Of a stretch of 64,000 nucleotides of DNA, positions 1,351 to 52,178 are shown piece by piece; the stretch's first letter is position 1; each line of letters opens with the position of its first letter. The notes under the pieces are model-generated. The model ran no database searches and was not told the DNA's origin. It saw only the letters and a program-made list of their open reading frames with translations. The position numbers and the translations under genes were made by a program. Source of the DNA: Sphaerolaimus hirsutus (taxonomy: Eukaryota; Nematoda; Chromadorea; Monhysterida; Sphaerolaimidae); contig OZ038450.1 of assembly GCA_964036195.1 (NCBI GenBank), positions 13,394,701-13,458,700 on the forward strand. Reading direction: 5' to 3'.

Positions 1351-1542
1351 GTGCCAATCCCAAGCCCTGTAAAGTGTAAAGTAAAGTGTCAAATGTAAAG
1401 TCAAATGCAAAGTAAACTGTCAATTGTCATGCAAAGTTCAGTAATAAAATCTTTTCTTTTTTGTTTTGATTGACACTTTACTTTGCATTTGACTTTACAT
1501 TTGATACTTTACTTTACACTTTACAGGGCTTGGGACTGCCCC
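1351..1542. mobile_element. Introner-like element, intact intergenic copy
   Basis: A 192-bp element starts GTGCCAATCCCAAGCCCTG and ends GGGCTTGGGACTGCCCC, with long internal inverted repeats (TGTCAAATG / CATTTGACA type). It is flanked on both sides by CTG (1348-1350 and 1543-1545), which fits a 3-bp target duplication. By eye it differs from the 192-bp element that forms intron 3 of the mRpL16 gene at only two positions. I see no exons around it, so here it looks like an ordinary transposon insertion. Confidence 0.85.
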
Positions 1543-11892: not shown

Positions 11893-12085
11893 TGGGGCAG
11901 TTCCGCAACCTGTTAACTATAAAGTCAAGTATCAAATGGCATGTAAAATTTTAATTAAAATATAAAATTAAATATTTTATTACTGAACTTCAAACAGTTT
12001 TTGCATGACATTTCACAACTTTGTTTTACATTTTACATGACATTTGTCACTATACTTTATAGTTTACAGGGTGTGGGACTGTCAT
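11893..12085. mobile_element. Introner-like element, intergenic
   Basis: Left GGCAGTTCCGCAACCTGTTA, right TTTACAGGGTGTGGGACTGT, with AAGTATCAAATGGCATGTA and ACATGACATTTGTCACTATA between. It is diverged and has no flanking exons. Confidence 0.6.
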
Positions 12086-12575: not shown

Positions 12576-15500
12576 TCACACAGCCGCTCGCCACCCAATA
12601 ACCATCTTATCAAATCCACAAGTGACCAAATTGACAGCGTGTTGTTGCTGAGGGGTGGCAGTTGGCGCGGTGCCAGAATCCAGCCAAGCACAGCAACAAA
12701 CCATTCGACGATGGCACCTGAAAGGGTGTGAGAACAGTGAATCTTTTTGTTGTATGCATGGAATGACGCCATGGTGTTTGGCGTCATGGCTCCATGGCGC
12801 CGTTGGCGCCTGGTGTGCTTCTGTGCGCCATTTTCTGATAAGCTATGGCGCCCTTCTTCGAGGCAATTTTTCATCCTACTTGGATTGGTTGGAAACTATT
12901 TTTGAGAGATCTGTTTTTAAGAAACGATTGGAGAACGGTTACAGAACATGACATTTGACACTCGACTTTACACCATACAGGGCTCGGGACTGGCACCCAA
13001 CCCCCAGCAAACCACCGACCTCTGATTGCCCCTCGGCAGGCGGGCCAGCCGCTGCCCGTTCAAGTCGTACAGGCGCACGTGTCGATTGTCGTGCGGAATG
13101 GCGATCACGCCCGACTTGCTGACGGCCAGTCGATTGGCGGGCGCGTCCAGCCTGGGAAAATTGTGTATATTTACATTGAGAACGATAGAACAGACAATTG
13201 AAAATCGGTTTTTCAACTCGAAATAGATATACGCGTGAAATGCTAAAACCACACAACAAAGTTCGATTTAAACAGATTTGTTAGTAGTGGAATAAGCGGC
13301 ATGTGCATAAAGCCATTAATTCAGCTTGGCTGCCATGTCCAAACATTATGCTTAATTTAAATTCAATAACTTAATTCAAAAAGTATCCACAAAAAAAATT
13401 TATCAAAAAAATCGAACTTCGAAAAGTCATCTGAGAAAAAATTTCAAACACTTTTGCCAAATAACTAAATTGCCATCATTCACCTGAGCGTGGCCAGGGC
13501 CGAGCGCATATTTCTCAGGTCCCACACTTTGACGGCCCTGTCGTCGCCGGCGGAAACGACCCGCTCCCCGGCCGCGGCGAGCACAGCCGAGTTGACTGAT
13601 CTGTGATTGGTAATTGAAATTCGATGCGTTTATATTGATGAAAAAGTTATTAGATTTCGGGTAAATTCCGAAAGTCACGTAGTAATAAAAGAGTAAAATG
13701 CAGGGCTGGGGGGGGCAAATCGGCCCATTAACAATCTATCCACCCCAGACCCCCAGATCTATATATATATACAAAATTTTTGGGCTATTATCCCCAAATC
13801 GCACAGCTATCTACCGATCCGGAGAAAATTCGGAGCTCAAAACAAAACAGACAGAAACAACAACCTCCACACCCTCAAACACCCTACCCCCCAAAAAGAA
13901 ACCACCCACTCAGAGTGTCCCTGAAACACGGCCACAGAGTGTATAGGCTCACGAAAGTCCCACAGTCTGAAGGTGGTGTCTTTGCTGGCAGTGACCACCA
14001 AGCGCTGCGTGGGGTGCGCGCTGCAGTGATTCAGCTCCTGGTCGTGGCCTGGGTGGTCGATGGGAAGTTTGGGTGGTGGGAGGGGGTGGTCGAGGGACGT
14101 CGGTTGATTATTCACTGGTTTTATTATCTTTCTTCAATTATTGGGGGGATTATTCAAGTGGGGGATTTTTACTCACTCGTCTAACAGAGGGAATTATTCA
14201 AGTGGGGGGGGAATTATTCGCGTAAATACAGTAATAAGATATCACACAAATGTCCACTGTGACTAGTCTTCCTGTGCATGCAGCAACATTGAGTGGAGAG
14301 ATGCGAAAATATAGAACATTAAAAAAATCTAAACAGTAAAAATAAGATGCTTTCTTGAATATTTATTGGCGAATGTAAAAAAACTGGAAGTGGCACAGCC
14401 ACGCGAAAACGCACCACTCAAAATATTCAATATCTCGCCAGTCTCCGCATCATATATATTGGCCGTTCTGTCCCAACTTGCGGTGATCACCTGATTGCCG
14501 GTGCAAAGCCAGTCGGCGCAAATAACCACTCCCGTGTGTCCAGTCAAACGCATCAGGGGCTGCCGCACGACGTCGGTCAACTCGGAGTTGACGTCGATGT
14601 TGGCCGAGGGCAACGCGTTGGCGTCGATGTCGCCCGCGGATGCGTTGGCCATGTTGGCCGGCTGAGGCTGGCCATCTAATTCTTCTTCGCTGGTCGTCGT
14701 GCCGCCCTGTTGAGTTGCGCTGGAGCTCTGCGTGTCAGTAGCTTGTTGAGTTTACTGACCAGTGGCCGCACACACTATTGGCGGCACACACACTAGTTGA
14801 CACAACTGTGTGTCAAGTGGTCTTTGTCAATAAGTTGACACATGTGTGAACTGAACGTCTGTGTCTACACGGATTTCGGCTTATCGTGTCCCAGAGCGAT
14901 CTTCCAATGCACTTGCCATAATATTTATTTTTCATCATTGCCGCATATGTACTTGGAGATCCGGAATCTTAGTTGACGCAGACCGGTTGAGACACATGTG
15001 TTAACTAGTGTGCGGGACGCCATTATAATGAAAAAAACCCACGCCCCACCCACATATTTTCCCTGTGCCTCGCGCGCACTGGTGCCTCCCTCAGCAGAAG
15101 CTCCCCCAGCCGCCTGCCCGCCACAATTACAGGGCATATTTACTCGCCAAATGTGTGCCGATTGATCCCCGCTGGCAGTCAGCAGGGTGTGCTGTTGTTG
15201 TTGGGACACACTCGTTCCCGACTGGTCGTCGTTCCGGAAAGCGACCGAATTAACTGAGGTGGCTTGACCGTGTCCCACGTACTGCAGTTGGGGGGTAAAT
15301 GAATGTGTGCATGTTTGTGGATTTGGTGTAGGATGCAGTTTGATTTAAAGTTGAACGGGCGCATCTCACAGACTCCCAGACAAATGTTAAATGTCGTGCA
15401 AAGTGCATTTTTACAAAGTTTCCAGACCATTTTACATGGCTCTTAACACTTTTCATGACATTTGCCATTTTAGAGATTGGCTGGTAGTGACCCCAGAACA

Positions 15501-27190: not shown

Positions 27191-30012
27191 ATGTCGGTAA
27201 ACTTGCTGTTTTCCACGCTGGGGTCATCGGTTGCGTCTACATCTCGACTTTTGGTTTCAGCGCCATCAATTCTGCAGCACTGTAGCTCGCGAACTCTCAA
27301 AGGAATACCGAAATTTGAGCGTTATGAAGGTGAGACAGCGTGTTGGCACAGTGCCGAAGTTTCCAAAATAGCGTATTTTCGTAGTTTGTGATCTACTCCG
27401 GGATGGCACTAAACTAGGATGCTATGCATTTTCAGCCGTCTTACTGAAGTCTCAGGATCTTAGGGCAAAATTTTTTTGTTCGGGGGCGCCTCTATAATAT
27501 TTCTTACTGAACATAGCAAATCACTTTTCAGGTGCTCAAACATGAACAGATCATCAGCTATTTAGGTCAATAGCTGGAAAATGGTATTGGGATACATAAT
27601 TTGTGCCCTCAGCCCCAGGGTGCAGTCTGAAGCCCTGTAAAGTGAAAAGTCAAGCGTCAAATGTCATGTAAAATGTCAATTAAAACAAAAAAGAAAAGAT
27701 TTACTTTGCATGACAATTGACAAATTTGTTATGACACTCTACTTCACACTTTACAGGGCTTCGGACTGTTACCAGTCTGACTGGTCTGTATTTCATAGTG
27801 TTACTTTACAACTTGAAAGTGCTGCCACACACTTTCTTATCCTACAGGCATTGTGTACCCCCCTGACGGACAGCGACAACTCCCAACATTGCCCATGGAA
27901 CCTCCCTTATATCCAGACGATACCACAAGGGGCCATTATAGGGATACAAGGAGATATTTGGAGTTTAGGATGCCTGAACAAGTGCACACTGAAGTGTTGC
28001 ATAAACAGTACGCGATTGTGGTTCGTTTTGAGATTTTCATTGGGTTGATAGTTATGTTGTTGTTTTTTGTAAATATTGACTTTCTAGACTGACTGTAGTT
28101 TTCTGTATGGTCTTTAATGGCGTGTGTACTGCAAGTTTTTTTACTTGTTGGAGTGTCGTGTTTGAGCGGTCACAGGGACGTAGCCAGGATTTTTGAGCGG
28201 GGGGGGCGGATTGTATACGGAGCCCGGCGAACGGGGGGGGGGGCGGCGCCCCCCCCCCCTAAAATGTTGCCCCTGTAGTAGGGGAATGGCGCCATGGCGC
28301 TGGCGCCATTCGTAGGCGCCACTCCATGGCGCCATTGGCGTTGGCATTGGCGCCAATACAGCAGTATACTTCTGTAATTTACAGACATACAGAGCGACAT
28401 GGACACGAATTGAGTCCATTTTCACTGGGTTTGAGGCCGCGGAGACCGGTCAATCGAAAATATATGTTGTGAAGCGAAAATGCGCGCTCGCGCGCAAAAT
28501 TTTTCAAACTGTCGACAAAATCGTCTTCTGAAAGTGCCATTTCCGGCACATTTTTTGGTCCGGCCCGGGAAGGGGGGGGGCGGCCGCCCCCCCCGCCCCC
28601 CCCCCTGGCTACGTCCTTGAGCTGTCATGAGTTTTGGGGTAGCTGATGGGGGGGGGGGGGGTGAGCGTCAAATATCTAATAATTCGGATACCGCCATATA
28701 CCGTATTTCCTCGAACCCCCCCCCCCCACGAAAAACCCCCTTAAAATTCTCACTTTGAAAAAATAAACCCCCGGGGGTATTTCGTGGAAATACTGTAGTT
28801 TTTCAGTATCCCAAGGCGAAAAATATGCTTACTATCCCTGAACACTCCGCCCAAACGGCCGAAACCTATTTATCTATTTAGATGTAATATTGATTTAATG
28901 TGATTCAAATAATATTTACATTTTCCATCCGAAAATCTACAATCATCCATAGAAAACAACCAATACCGAACACAACAGGCAGAGCGCGGTGGCTGGCTGA
29001 CCCCAAAGCACTTCGACATTCTTCGAAAACGCATCAATATCTACCTAAAAGGGGACCAATTTGCAGTTTGGCGAGTAGAAAGTCCCTGGCTGCCGCGCAC
29101 TATGAAACCGATGGGCATGAAACGAGGGGGTGGCAAGGGGAAAATTCGGTACTTTTGCACCCCGATCAGGTGGCAATCCCAAGCCCTGTAAAGTGTAAAG
29201 TAAAGTGTCAAATGTAAAGTCAAATGCAAAGTAAACTGTCAATTGTCATGCAAAGTTCAGTAATAAAATCTTTTCTTTTTTGTTTTGATTGACACTTTAC
29301 TTTGCATTTGACTTTACATTTGACACTTTACTTTACACTTTACAGGGCTTGGGACTGCCCCCAGGGCTGGAAGGGTTATTGTGGAACTGGGCGGGAAGAT
29401 TACTTATGATGCTGTGGGTTTGCGGGCGGTTTTCTGGTTTTTAATGCTTTTTCTAAAAGGTAGGGTGTTAGAGTTTGATACGCATATAAACCGGCCTGTG
29501 CCGCGCACGTAAAGTTGTCTGATAAAGTTGGTTAAGTGCCATGTAGACGGCACAGTAGAAACTAAAAACTATTTTACCGATAATCTCACATTTTACGCAA
29601 TTTTTGGCAACTCTGTATGACATTTACAGGCCCCTGGACTGCTGCCCAATCGTCTTTCGTTTATTATTTACCTCCCAAAAATTTCAAAGTTCTATACGCC
29701 AAAATTCTAGACAGAATTTCACGCTAGAACTCCAAGAATATCACGAAAAGACCCACTCAACCTCAATTAAACCCTCACTTAAATAGCCACTTTCAGGCGC
29801 GCGCAATTTTGGCCCCAGTGTCCTTCGCTATGCCAATGGAGTCCCGATTTATCAGTTATGAGGAAATGTTGGAAGAAAAAGAGCTAAAACATTGGGTAAA
29901 TGAACACAATACGAACCCGTATGACATGGAGTTGATGTGCAGGTTCAATATGCAAAATATGAGTAGATTTATGTCACCGTATGATCAAGAGTTTAGAGGA
30001 AAATTTTGGTAG
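27191..30012 (+). CDS. mRpL16: Mitochondrial ribosomal protein L16, complete
   Basis: Component of the large subunit of the mitochondrial ribosome (uL16 family, near the peptidyl-transferase centre). Five exons: 27191-27329, 27848-28020, 28979-29169, 29365-29459 and 29819-30012 (stop TAG). Phases agree (792 nt, 263 residues). Exon 1 encodes a targeting-like start (MSVNLLFSTLG, SRLLVSAPSILQHCSSRT). The uL16 core follows: YAIVAERGGWLTPKHFDILR, FAVWRVESPWLPRT, KPMGMKRGGGKGKIRYF, then AGRVIVELGGKI. The C-terminal mitochondrial extension ends MSRFMSPYDQEFRGKFW, close to the ending of animal mRpL16. For exon 5 the acceptor before TGTCC (29818) keeps the frame; an upstream acceptor at 29796 leads to an early stop. 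Intron 3 is exactly one very young introner, intron 1 contains a second, and intron 4 a remnant. Confidence 0.95.
27619..27772 (+). mobile_element. Introner inside mRpL16 intron 1
   Basis: Ends GGTGCAGTCTGAAGCCCTG and AGGGCTTCGGACTGTTAC, flanked by CAG at 27616-27618 and 27773-27775. It lies well inside the 518-bp intron, so it does not define the splice sites. Confidence 0.8.
28173..28619. mobile_element. hAT-like element, CAGGGACGTAGCC family
   Basis: Starts CAGGGACGTAGCCAGG, ends CCTGGCTACGTCCTTG, flanked by AGCGGTCA (28165-28172) and AGCTGTCA (28620-28627), 7 of 8 identical. It carries the same GCGCGCTCGCGCGC and GGCGCCATGGCGC blocks as its relatives and lies in mRpL16 intron 2. Confidence 0.88.
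29170..29364 (+). mobile_element. Introner forming mRpL16 intron 3
   Basis: The exon ends ATCAG; the intron opens GTGGCAATCCCAAGCCCTG and ends GGGACTGCCCC plus CAG. The element proper is 192 bp (29170-29361) between CAG at 29167-29169 and CAG at 29362-29364. Removing element plus the second CAG restores an uninterrupted uL16 reading (TPIR then AGRVIVELGG). It differs from the copy at 1351-1542 at two positions by eye. Confidence 0.93.
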
Positions 30013-48800: not shown

Positions 48801-50876
48801 CTGAGCGATTGAAACCCCCATCCCCACATTGGAGACCCCTGATAACGTGTGACTAGATCAGCCAACACTAGAGATAAGTTAAATTTGCATCTACACCTCC
48901 AAGATAATTTTGAAGCGCAATGGGACCAATTAGATTCCAATTAATCTCTAGGCAATTGCATCGATGATAAAATAACAAAATAAAATTCACCTGTTCAAGT
49001 TGACCCGTTTTGTCTGCACAGTCAGTTTGTATAGCTTTTATTTGGTCTCTCTGAGCCTCCACTGAAGCTTTCAAACTTCGGATCAACTCAATTTCATCTT
49101 CATTGACAACTGGAAAATTGGGACGAATTTTTTTAAAATAAATTTTAAATAAATCCAAAATGTTTCCATCGGTGATAATGTTACTAAAAGTGAAAAGAAA
49201 CCGTCAACATGCAATAAAGTGACAGGGCAGCACGTTCTTAAACAGTTCAACATTTGAGTACATCCAACGGCAAAAAAAGTTTTATAACATCGCTGAGGTG
49301 ATGTAGATTGATTTTGACTCTACATTCACACGAAATCAACAAAACATTGGTTGGCAAGAAATTTATCGAAGTTTTAGGATTTTCCTCTAGAAGTCAAAAT
49401 TTTATCGCAAAAATGGAGTGCATACTTCGCGCAGAATCTTACTATAATTTTTTATGAAAAAAAATTGTGATAAATTGCGTAATGGATAATACCATAGTAA
49501 AACGAAACATTATGATAAAAAACTGTATAATATTGGTTCATTATTCAGATGGGTTATGTAGGTTTCCATACTAAGTGTGATCCGCCGAGTGTATAATGAT
49601 CAACAAGCATTGGACCAACATTCTAAAGATTCTAGAAAACTTCTCACCGTGAACAGGGCTAGATTTATCTGCATGTGAATCTACGGCTGCACTGAGTCGT
49701 CTGTTATCAGCTTGCAAACTCTCAACCATTGCCCAAAGTTCCTGTGTTTCTTTTTTGTTATTTTCTTCGATTTGTTCGAGTTCCTGCGTGGAGAAAGGAA
49801 ATTTAAATAAAAATTGTAGGGTTTTTGATGAAATGTTGACTCGTTTCAAAATTTCGGATTATGAATATCAAATCGAAAATGTTTAAAAATCAAATATAAT
49901 TTGACAGTAACTGTTGAAATACAACATTTTACTGAAATATTCAGGTGGACTATGAGAACTTACTTTTGGTAAACTATGAAAATCAATGAGACTAAATCTA
50001 TGAAAAAAAATATTTTAAAAATTGAATGTGGGTATTTTTAGAATTGGAAAAAACTGGCGAATGCAGGAATATCTACACTGACAATTCAAAATACACAATG
50101 ATTCGACCAAAAAAAACATTCAAAAGAATAACTCAAAGCCAACCCTCTCAAACTTTTCCCTCGCCTCTTTACTGGTCTGTTTGTCGTGTTCCAACCTATC
50201 AATAATCTGACTCAAAGTGGCGATTTCTTGGTTTTCCCTTTCGTTGCCGGCCGCCAGCGCCTCCAGAGTTTCCAGCGCGGTAATGACCTAGGAGAAAATA
50301 AAATCTTATCGAGATATAACAGTTTTGGTAAGAATTGATAAAAGTTGAAAACTAAATGTGCAAAAAAATCAAGCAAACATTGTACCAGGTAATTCCGTAC
50401 CCTGTAAAGTGTCAAATGTCAAGTAAATTGTCATACAAATGTCATACAAAAGGTCAAAACTTCACTAACAACAATAATAAAGGTATATTCTTTTTTATTT
50501 TAGTTGACAGTTTGCATGGCATTAGACACTTTACTTTACACGTTACAGGGCGCGGGACTGTCCCCTGGCGATCCCTGAATGCTAGCAGTTTGCATGTGCA
50601 AATGCAGCTTGCAGGATTACCCTCAAATTAAACCGCACCAACGACAGCGCCACTTACCTTCGGCATGACCTGCTTAGCCGCATCGGTGCCGTGGTCCCTG
50701 ATCAAGTGCTCGAAGTCCTTGCCGATGGCGGCGGCCAAGTCGTACACGTCCACCACGGTGATGTACTTGCTGGGCGACACGCTGGGCGACGGCGTCGCGT
50801 TGGCGCTGCCCGCCCCGCTGCCGCCCGACGCCATTTTGGGGCCGACCGAGTTTGCGGTCGCGCCGCATAATGACAT
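39865..50876 (-). CDS. RILPL: RILP-like protein (RH1 and RH2 domains), complete
   Basis: A dimeric coiled-coil adaptor; RILP-like proteins bind phosphorylated Rab8/Rab10-type GTPases by RH2 and motor or myosin partners by RH1 (family knowledge). Ten exons: 50876-50658, 50287-50144, 49783-49648, 49109-48991, 42806-42699, 42526-42413, 42097-42059, 41538-41375, 41065-40967 and 40024-39865. Phases agree (about 433 residues). Exon 1 holds RH1: YITVVDVYDLAAAIGKDFEH, then QVMPK. Exons 2-6 are heptad-rich coiled coil (VITALETLEALAAGNEREN; ELIRSLKASVEAQRDQIKA; VDRLARANKELGRKN). Exon 8 holds RH2: PRFSLNELRSVLHEKNELK. The end has YGPMPREPDEKL and a Ser/Thr-rich tail. The acceptor of exon 6 is uncertain (42526 or 42517; both in frame) because the intron is an introner lacking a terminal AG. 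Intron 4 is 6.2 kb of repeats. JIP3/4 share RH1/RH2 but are far longer. A donor-like GACT-GTTAGT overlaps the stop. Confidence 0.92.
42512..42698 (-). mobile_element. Introner in RILP-like intron 5, inserted at CTG
   Basis: On the gene strand the exon ends GAGCTG, the element opens GTGCCACTTTCACACCC and ends AGGGTCTGGAGTGTCCC followed by CTG. There is no AG at the outer end. An in-frame acceptor must therefore lie inside the element (CACAG at 42527, or GGAG at 42518), adding 9-15 bases of element sequence to the protein. Confidence 0.8.
44773..45218. mobile_element. hAT-like element, CAGGGACGTATCC family
   Basis: Starts CAGGGACGTATCCAGG, ends CCTGGATACGTCCTTG, flanked by identical ATCTCACG at 44765-44772 and 45219-45226. 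Contains the GCGCGCTCGCGCGC block. Confidence 0.92.
45667..45905. repeat. Inverted-repeat element with TTGGGACA / TGTCCCAA ends
   Basis: Left part GTTCCAGAAAGATTGGGACA, right part TTGTCCCAATCTTTCCGAAA. The middle contains several CATTCC/TTTCCG near-repeats. It has no plausible gene. Confidence 0.5.
47234..47939. mobile_element. hAT-like element, TAGGGTTGG family, longest copy
   Basis: Starts TAGGGTTGG and ends CCAACCCTA, flanked by AGTGTAGT at 47226-47233 and 47940-47947 (8 of 8). Both ends have AAAAAACGTTTTTTTT runs. The interior carries GCGCGCTTGCGCGC and ACCTAGTGCTTAGTACTAAA. Relatives are at 53639-53937, 59036-59430 (truncated, inverted) and 61020-61506. Confidence 0.9.
50389..50567. mobile_element. 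Introner-like element in RILP-like intron 1
   Basis: Plus-strand ends GTAATTCCGTACCCTGTAAA and TTACAGGGCGCGGGACTGTC, with AGTGTCAAATGTCAAG inside. It lies inside the 370-bp intron away from both splice sites. Confidence 0.7.
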
Positions 50877-52178
50877 GCTGCTCGGCCAGAGTCGCGTTTG
50901 GACAATCCCGAAAGTTTTTAGAGGTTGTTTTGTTGGTTGGTGAAGTGTGATGCGAAATGGTATTGTGGGTTTGGTAGATTTGGGAAGATTGCTAGTGCTC
51001 TTTATGAAAACAAGCACTTTTGAACACCTTACTGATTGATGTGAAGTGAGAACAGTCAATCCACAGTTTGCCAGTGGGGGTGTGACAGATGAGAAAGTTC
51101 ATCTGGTGGTAAATTTTATATTAAATGATACATGGTAAGTAAACTGGTAAATGATTAGTAGTGAGATCTAAAGCACTTCATCAGTGTCACTTACAATAAT
51201 AAGAATCACATTTCTTATCTCTTGGCAAGATTAGCTCAGAACTTCAGAAAATCGCTAAATTTTCATGCGTCCTTAAACTAACAAACAACCAAACAAAGAG
51301 TGACACGGGATTGTCGAAACGCGTCCCGCTCAAAACACTCGTTGGCTTTCTGCTTGGAGACCAGCACTCGCGAAACACTGCTGCGGTGGTTCACAGGTAA
51401 ATTCATTGCGAAATATTGAAGTAATTTTTTAAGTGCTGAAATAAAATTCTGCTACCAGACTACAATGGATACAAATAGATTTCTACTGCTTTACAAATAC
51501 ACGGACAAAAGCTAAACCACAAAAATGCTAATAAATGGCGCGCGTGACTTATGTTTCAAGCGGAACAAAAAAAATACTGCAAAACACTTTCTGTAGCCAA
51601 TATCACATGCATTTCGCATGCGCCGGATTGCTCATCTTCATGACAGCCTGAAACTTTAACCGTATACTTGTACTTTGACGCCGGAAAAAGTTGATTTTTT
51701 TTCTTACTGTAGCTAGGGTAATCTAACTCTTTTATTGTACATTACTCTGAAGTCACGTTGAAATAACTACACCAAAACAATTGCACAATATTTTTGACAT
51801 CCTATCAAAATGTTGTAGGTTAAAACTCGATAATGATGCCCCACTTCTTTCGGCAACACACTCGCGGGAACGAATGACTGCTGAAAAATATTCTGAAATC
51901 CGGTACTGGAACGATCGGGGTTAGGAAAATTTTGGCGGATTGGCGTAGTGCCATGATTACGCACTTTACGTCAACCAGTAATTTACGTTAAGTAATGTTT
52001 TATACATTGGGACCAATAATTCACGTTAAAACCACGCCTTTTACGAGAACCAGAGCCATAAGCTCCGCCTAATTCGCGACTGAAAAAATAAAAAAAAGGA
52101 AAAATAGCCTCGGGCACTTCCTTGGACGTTCCTTATCGCTTATGTGCCGCCATGGCTTATGGGCGCTCATGGGCTTAG
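50877..52178. other. Region upstream of the RILP-like gene
   Basis: AT-rich sequence with no exon, clear repeat or RNA gene that I can see. It should include the promoter of the RILP-like gene; no TATA box or initiator is obvious. Confidence 0.5.

Follow-up and report, generated by a model that had tools for sequence, protein, structure and literature searches.

Through a conserved part of the uL16m (mRpL16) reading frame runs an interruption of 195 nt that consists almost entirely of a transposon-like element. The locus raises the question of whether insertion of this element into an exon has created a new intron and, if so, how the message of the gene would have been kept intact. The locus lies in a window of 64,000 nucleotides (the whole stretch of DNA that was analysed), to which the following positions refer.

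28979..29169, plus strand: uL16m (mRpL16) exon 5' of the element; ends in ...ATCAG; open frame with matches to Pfam PF00252 and to uL16m chains in PDB; upstream border placed by eye
29167..29169, plus strand: left copy of the target duplication CAG; the same letters stand at 29362-29364 (CAGG if the next G is included)
29170..29364, plus strand: putative intron in uL16m; 195 nt, running from GTGGCAA to TGCCCCCAG
29170..29361, plus strand: MITE of 192 bp; provides the GT of the predicted 5' splice site
29169..29243, plus strand: left arm of the terminal inverted repeat, from a repeat search; 75 nt, 96% complementary to the right arm
29288..29362, plus strand: right arm of the terminal inverted repeat, from a repeat search; 75 nt
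29362..29364, plus strand: right copy of the target duplication CAG; provides the AG of the predicted 3' splice site
29365..29459, plus strand: uL16m exon 3' of the element; starts GGCTGGAAGG; matches to Pfam PF00252 and to uL16m chains in PDB; right border placed by eye
29797..30012, plus strand: likely last uL16m exon; ends in ...EFRGKFW and a stop; solved uL16m chains align with it at their C-terminus; its junction with the preceding exon and its splice borders placed by eye
1351..1542, plus strand: a further copy of this subfamily within the window; CTG on either side (1348-1350 and 1543-1545)

The insertion site and the predicted intron

A sequence-only reading of the window had proposed that the whole intron is a 192-bp inverted-repeat element plus one CAG. 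The repeat search bears out this composition, the two 75-nt arms being 96% complementary and the CAG being the second copy of the target duplication; at uL16m a fourth shared base, extending the duplicated word to CAGG, may belong to it as well. The element has the characters of a MITE: it is short (192 bp) and non-coding (stops in all three sense frames), it carries 75-nt terminal inverted repeats, and its target duplication has a fixed length of 3 bp. Its ends are GKGGCARTCCCAAGCCC. Stops also stand in all three frames of the intron if it is retained. The borders read CAG:GT...CAG:G (colons mark the predicted splice junctions), with CAGG directly at each border of the element and no remnant sequence between exon and element, which argues against an older intron at this site that the element would have filled or replaced; we regard such a history as extremely improbable.

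Without the element, the uninterrupted insertion-site sequence is CCGATCAGGGCTGG, and the joined exons translate as ...KGKIRYFCTPIR:AGRVIVELGGK... (junction ...CTPIR:AGRVIVE...). The proposal that the flanking exons are continuous through a conserved stretch of uL16 was confirmed in two ways. A PF00252 match spans the joined junction (residues 2-76 against positions 34-109, E = 9.3e-13 in Pfam), and solved mitochondrial uL16 chains match the joined exons (best E = 1.4e-23), the junction being gap-free in the two alignments shown. Searched against the assembly, the joined exons hit a single place in two pieces of 100% identity that overlap in the query by CAGG (positions 175-178); this search, with one candidate and one scored, found no uninterrupted second copy of uL16m. 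A search for uL16m homologues returned a single distant metagenomic match. We also considered, and rejected, an element that carries its own CAG and makes no target duplication: flanking 3-mers match in 69 of 118 copies of the element, and with a foreign CAG the old gene would read CCG ATG GCT (P-M-A) and so lack a residue of uL16m at a conserved basic position, which is R here and K in the aligned solved chains.

We consider it highly probable, from the DNA sequence, that insertion of the MITE in the uL16m exon created a new intron, which is predicted to be spliced exactly as 195 nt. The element, presumably moved by a transposase encoded elsewhere, would have entered the exon sequence ATCAGGGCTGG and duplicated CAG. 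Its first bases, GT, would have produced the left junction CAG:GT, while the AG of the right junction would have come from the duplicated host CAG; splicing is predicted to take out precisely these 195 nt and to restore the old message. The insertion would have been an intron at once, and the gene would have survived it. Insertion and predicted splicing together should leave the coding sequence unchanged, domain matches being unbroken over the joined junctions. The same insertion geometry is found in three other Pfam-confirmed genes.

The 5' splice site of uL16m, GTGGCA, is weak outside CAG:GT. In the predicted RNA fold the intron forms one near-full-length hairpin (-126.6 kcal/mol; z = -18.5 against dinucleotide shuffles, 0 of 200 being as good), which may bring the outer splice sites together near its base and mask two splice-like sites inside the element, GTAAAG and TTTACAG. 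The former, at 29188, is a better-looking donor lying 18 nt inside the element, and its use would keep these 18 nt (6 codons), which are open in all three phases, in the mRNA. It would, however, add six residues that neither of the two aligned uL16m chains has at this point, and it is predicted to be within the hairpin stem, so that splicing from this inner donor appears very improbable and removal of exactly 195 nt is preferred. In the hairpin-type non-canonical introns of euglenids and Fritillaria an inverted repeat likewise brings the intron ends together; their borders are non-canonical, whereas those predicted here are GT...AG.

Copy number, age and target of the element family

The 47-mer at the centre of the subfamily, searched genome-wide with up to 3 mismatches, gave 943 + 972 matches (~1,915 places) against 0 for the reversed-pattern control. 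A left-end 39-mer (up to 2 mismatches) gave 2499 + 2510 matches, again with a control of 0; one element may count twice in this search. The element end pattern had 0 exact matches in collections of viral contigs and genome contigs. Relatives of the element, diverged to 70-72% identity, were observed in the window at 11894-12084, 27614-27768 and 50472-50568. Another repeat, likewise abundant and marked by the motif CCGTATTTCCTCGAAATACCCCC..GGGGG, lies at window positions 770, 18954 and 38875 and at many other loci, and hosts several MITE copies.

Of 872 candidate places, the best 40 were scored; their identity is 98-100%, and three, the uL16m copy among them, reach 100% over 195 nt. A consensus was built from 66 sampled 188-nt cores, which diverge from it by a median of 1.6% and a maximum of 9.6%, and the uL16m core matches it at every position; this core sample favours close copies, and its divergence figures give no date for the whole family. 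The copy at 1351-1542 had been said to differ from the intron element at two positions, and local alignment finds 2 mismatches in 194 columns (BLAST, running slightly into the flanks, finds 4 in 200). It had also been taken for the source of the insertion. This part of the proposal did not hold: the copy is one of about 1,900, two other loci are 100% identical to the uL16m copy over 195 nt, and the uL16m copy equals the consensus. What does stand of the proposed recent intron gain by transposition is a transposon copy, very young, with the anatomy of an insertion-made intron (CAGG borders, a restored frame and one uL16m place). We infer splicing, a recent gain in this lineage, a role for the hairpin and a mobilising transposase.

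Flank statistics were taken on 118 oriented copies out of 120 sampled; the sample consists of the best-scoring matches and the first-listed places, loci without both end anchors being dropped, and is non-random. Identical 3-mers flank 69 of the 118, where 40.9 would be expected if the sides were independent. The left/right 3-mers are CAG/CAG in 37 copies, CTG/CTG in 25, CTG/CAG in 22 and CAG/CTG in 4. CWG stands on both sides in 88 of the 118; the W bases of the two sides are associated (P = 1.3e-5) and differ in 26 of these pairs. A non-CWG 3-mer is present on at least one side in 30 copies, of which just 7 are identical (ATG/ATG in 4 and CAT/CAT in 3). Identity in the ATG and CAT pairs favours a true duplication; the W differences and the identity of just 7 in 30 non-CWG copies imply that its signal is imperfect. 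CTG/CAG is far above CAG/CTG (22 against 4, P = 5e-4) in copies that are mostly 97-100% identical; this bias might come from sticky-end joining that keeps a donor base.

Copies in other exons

The flanks of the 120 copies were joined at the duplicated 3-mer, with 120 nt per side, and ORFs crossing the junction on either strand (with a minimum of 12 codons per side and 38 in total) were collected, 135 in sense and 105 in antisense. The Pfam scan at E ≤ 0.05 typed 133 of the 135 sense and 103 of the 105 antisense ORFs. Five sense copies have a domain across the junction: GT11 (L028), astacin (L094), decarboxylase (L122), uL16m and EGF (L081). No such copy was found among the 103 typed antisense ORFs at the same threshold, and the GT strand of the element is in the sense of the gene in 5/5 domain-crossing copies. 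Four of the five have GT and CAG edges, namely uL16m, the amino-acid decarboxylase, the GT11 glycosyltransferase and the EGF domain. The decarboxylase copy matches PF00282 (residues 1-55 to positions 18-72) and the GT11 copy PF01531 (residues 17-61 to 158-202), with equal length on both sides of each alignment; the EGF copy matches PF00008 (residues 34-61 to 6-32). The uL16m and EGF matches fall slightly under the Pfam cut-off when short trimmed pieces are used and lie above it with longer pieces.

GT...AG edges occur in 61 of the 118 copies, so that random insertion into exons would combine sense orientation with GT...AG in 26% of cases. The combination was seen in 4/5 (P = 0.018), or in 3/4 (P = 0.056) if the uL16m copy is left out because it was chosen for sitting in an intron. 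If strand only is considered, the split is 5 to 0 (P = 0.031), becoming 4 to 0 without uL16m (P = 0.06), and a Fisher test at the level of ORFs gives P = 0.07 (on 134 + 105 ORFs, against 133 + 103 scanned). The statistical support for an excess of sense copies with GT...AG edges is modest. Four further copies (L086, L123, L037 and L075) are in sense with CAG at the right end and look coding by eye, and in L024 the element is antisense in what appears by eye to be a GC-rich last exon. With these copies added, sense and GT...AG coincide in 8/10 exon copies (P = 5e-4), or 7/9 without uL16m (P = 0.002); L005, L026 and the second copy in L022 were too doubtful and were left out of the counts. L024 has no Pfam support, its PDB search at E 1 returning one meaningless match, and L075 has no PDB support at E 0.001.

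The astacin copy has CTG on both sides and no AG at its right edge, and its exon looks intact by eye, so it would represent either non-canonical splicing or a broken allele. Together with the antisense element in L024, it suggests that some exon insertions may simply be damage and not introns. That the uL16m insertion is of this sort, a recent and inefficiently spliced insertion whose assembled haplotype represents a damaged, possibly segregating allele, fits with its element being a fresh copy equal to the consensus and with these two probable exon insertions that lack usable borders (the CTG end of L094 and the antisense L024), but it is unlikely, since uL16m is probably essential, only one place for it was found in the assembly, and sense with GT...AG edges was seen in 4/5 Pfam-confirmed copies against 26% expected (P = 0.018; 3/4, P = 0.056, without uL16m). 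An intron created by the insertion is the reading that we retain.

Mobiliser, host genome and relation to known introners

PIF/Harbinger MITEs of the Tourist type (compare PMC2836001 and PMC2213677) have a 3-bp target duplication and inverted repeats, and our element is alike in both. A genome-wide search for the PF13359 transposase gave at least 163 matches at E ≤ 0.001 (150 of 306 candidates scored); matches were also present in 1 of 14 control genomes. The target of Harbinger is TWA, whereas that of this element is mostly CWG (on both sides in 88/118) and does not agree with TWA. About a hundred of the listed PF13359 matches are alike in length and score and look like a young PIF/Harbinger-type family; most of these hundred have four TGA inside, probably belonging to an intron. 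The terminal repeat GGCARTCCC, with up to 1 mismatch, was not found in the 3 kb around one PF13359 locus (L149), whose ends lie outside that 3 kb.

As for the host, the nematode-type telomere repeat (TTAGGC)n was found at one of the four contig starts read (C3). It was not seen at the other three: the letters at C1 are N, and neither C9 nor C16 has it in the first 300 bases. The 22-nt SL1 leader, with up to 2 mismatches, has 0 matches in the genome. Two other genes each have an exon on the minus strand of the window, one with WD40 repeats (14329-14751) and one of the RH1 (RILP homology) type (50628-51098). Tentatively, the host might be a nematode or a near relative amid an introner burst, in which a CWG-targeting MITE made dozens of new introns at a degenerate target through an unusual integration step, the last being suggested by the frequent difference between the duplicated W bases. 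Scaling the 4 Pfam-confirmed cases among 118 oriented copies to ~1,915 places would give ~65 introns, a rough figure from a non-random sample. If this scenario is true, the frequent W mismatch, in which CTG usually stands to the left and CAG to the right, would give an AG 3' splice site even when the element lands on CTG, and the mismatch pattern would be informative about the way in which elements of this kind are joined to the target.

Introners rank among the leading explanations of abrupt episodes of intron gain. According to the main text of PMC9860276 (Gozashti et al. 2022), they were found in 175 of 3,325 genomes; within animals and land plants they are limited to two groups, both animals. 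Copepods are named there among the introner-bearing animals, and the string 'nematod' is absent from that main text. In a nematode intron survey (PMC9169325), introners are mentioned in the discussion and references alone. No report of introners in nematodes was found in the titles and abstract openings of the papers listed, a search that ran mostly outside subscription journals. What would be new here is a putative introner in an unexpected animal host, the kind itself being already known; a live animal case with many near-identical copies, possibly segregating, would permit direct measurement of intron birth, splicing efficiency and selection.

On the sequence evidence the element appears, convincingly, to behave as introners do, transposons already known to make introns. 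It has many highly similar copies in one genome (943 + 972, control 0), and the similarity extends up to both splice borders in unrelated genes (the uL16m, PF00282, PF01531 and EGF copies), where the introns are predicted from DNA. The introners described in the main text of PMC9860276 are similarly near-identical transposable element copies, numerous, with inverted repeats and a short target duplication; they too make introns in exons, leave mRNA length mostly unchanged (which is predicted here) and co-opt a splice site from the duplicated target. The present case differs from them in its host genome with a TTAGGC telomere and in a target that is mostly CWG. The closest comparisons in that text are the introners of Chrysochromulina sp. 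and Symbiodinium microadriaticum, which have 4-bp duplications (Fig. 2C and 2B, respectively) and in which, as in this element, one splice site is element-borne and the other comes from the duplicated target. Those of Chrysochromulina, like our element, carry the 5' site and co-opt the 3' site but are without its long inverted repeats, whereas those of Symbiodinium share the long inverted repeats but carry the 3' site (PMC9860276).
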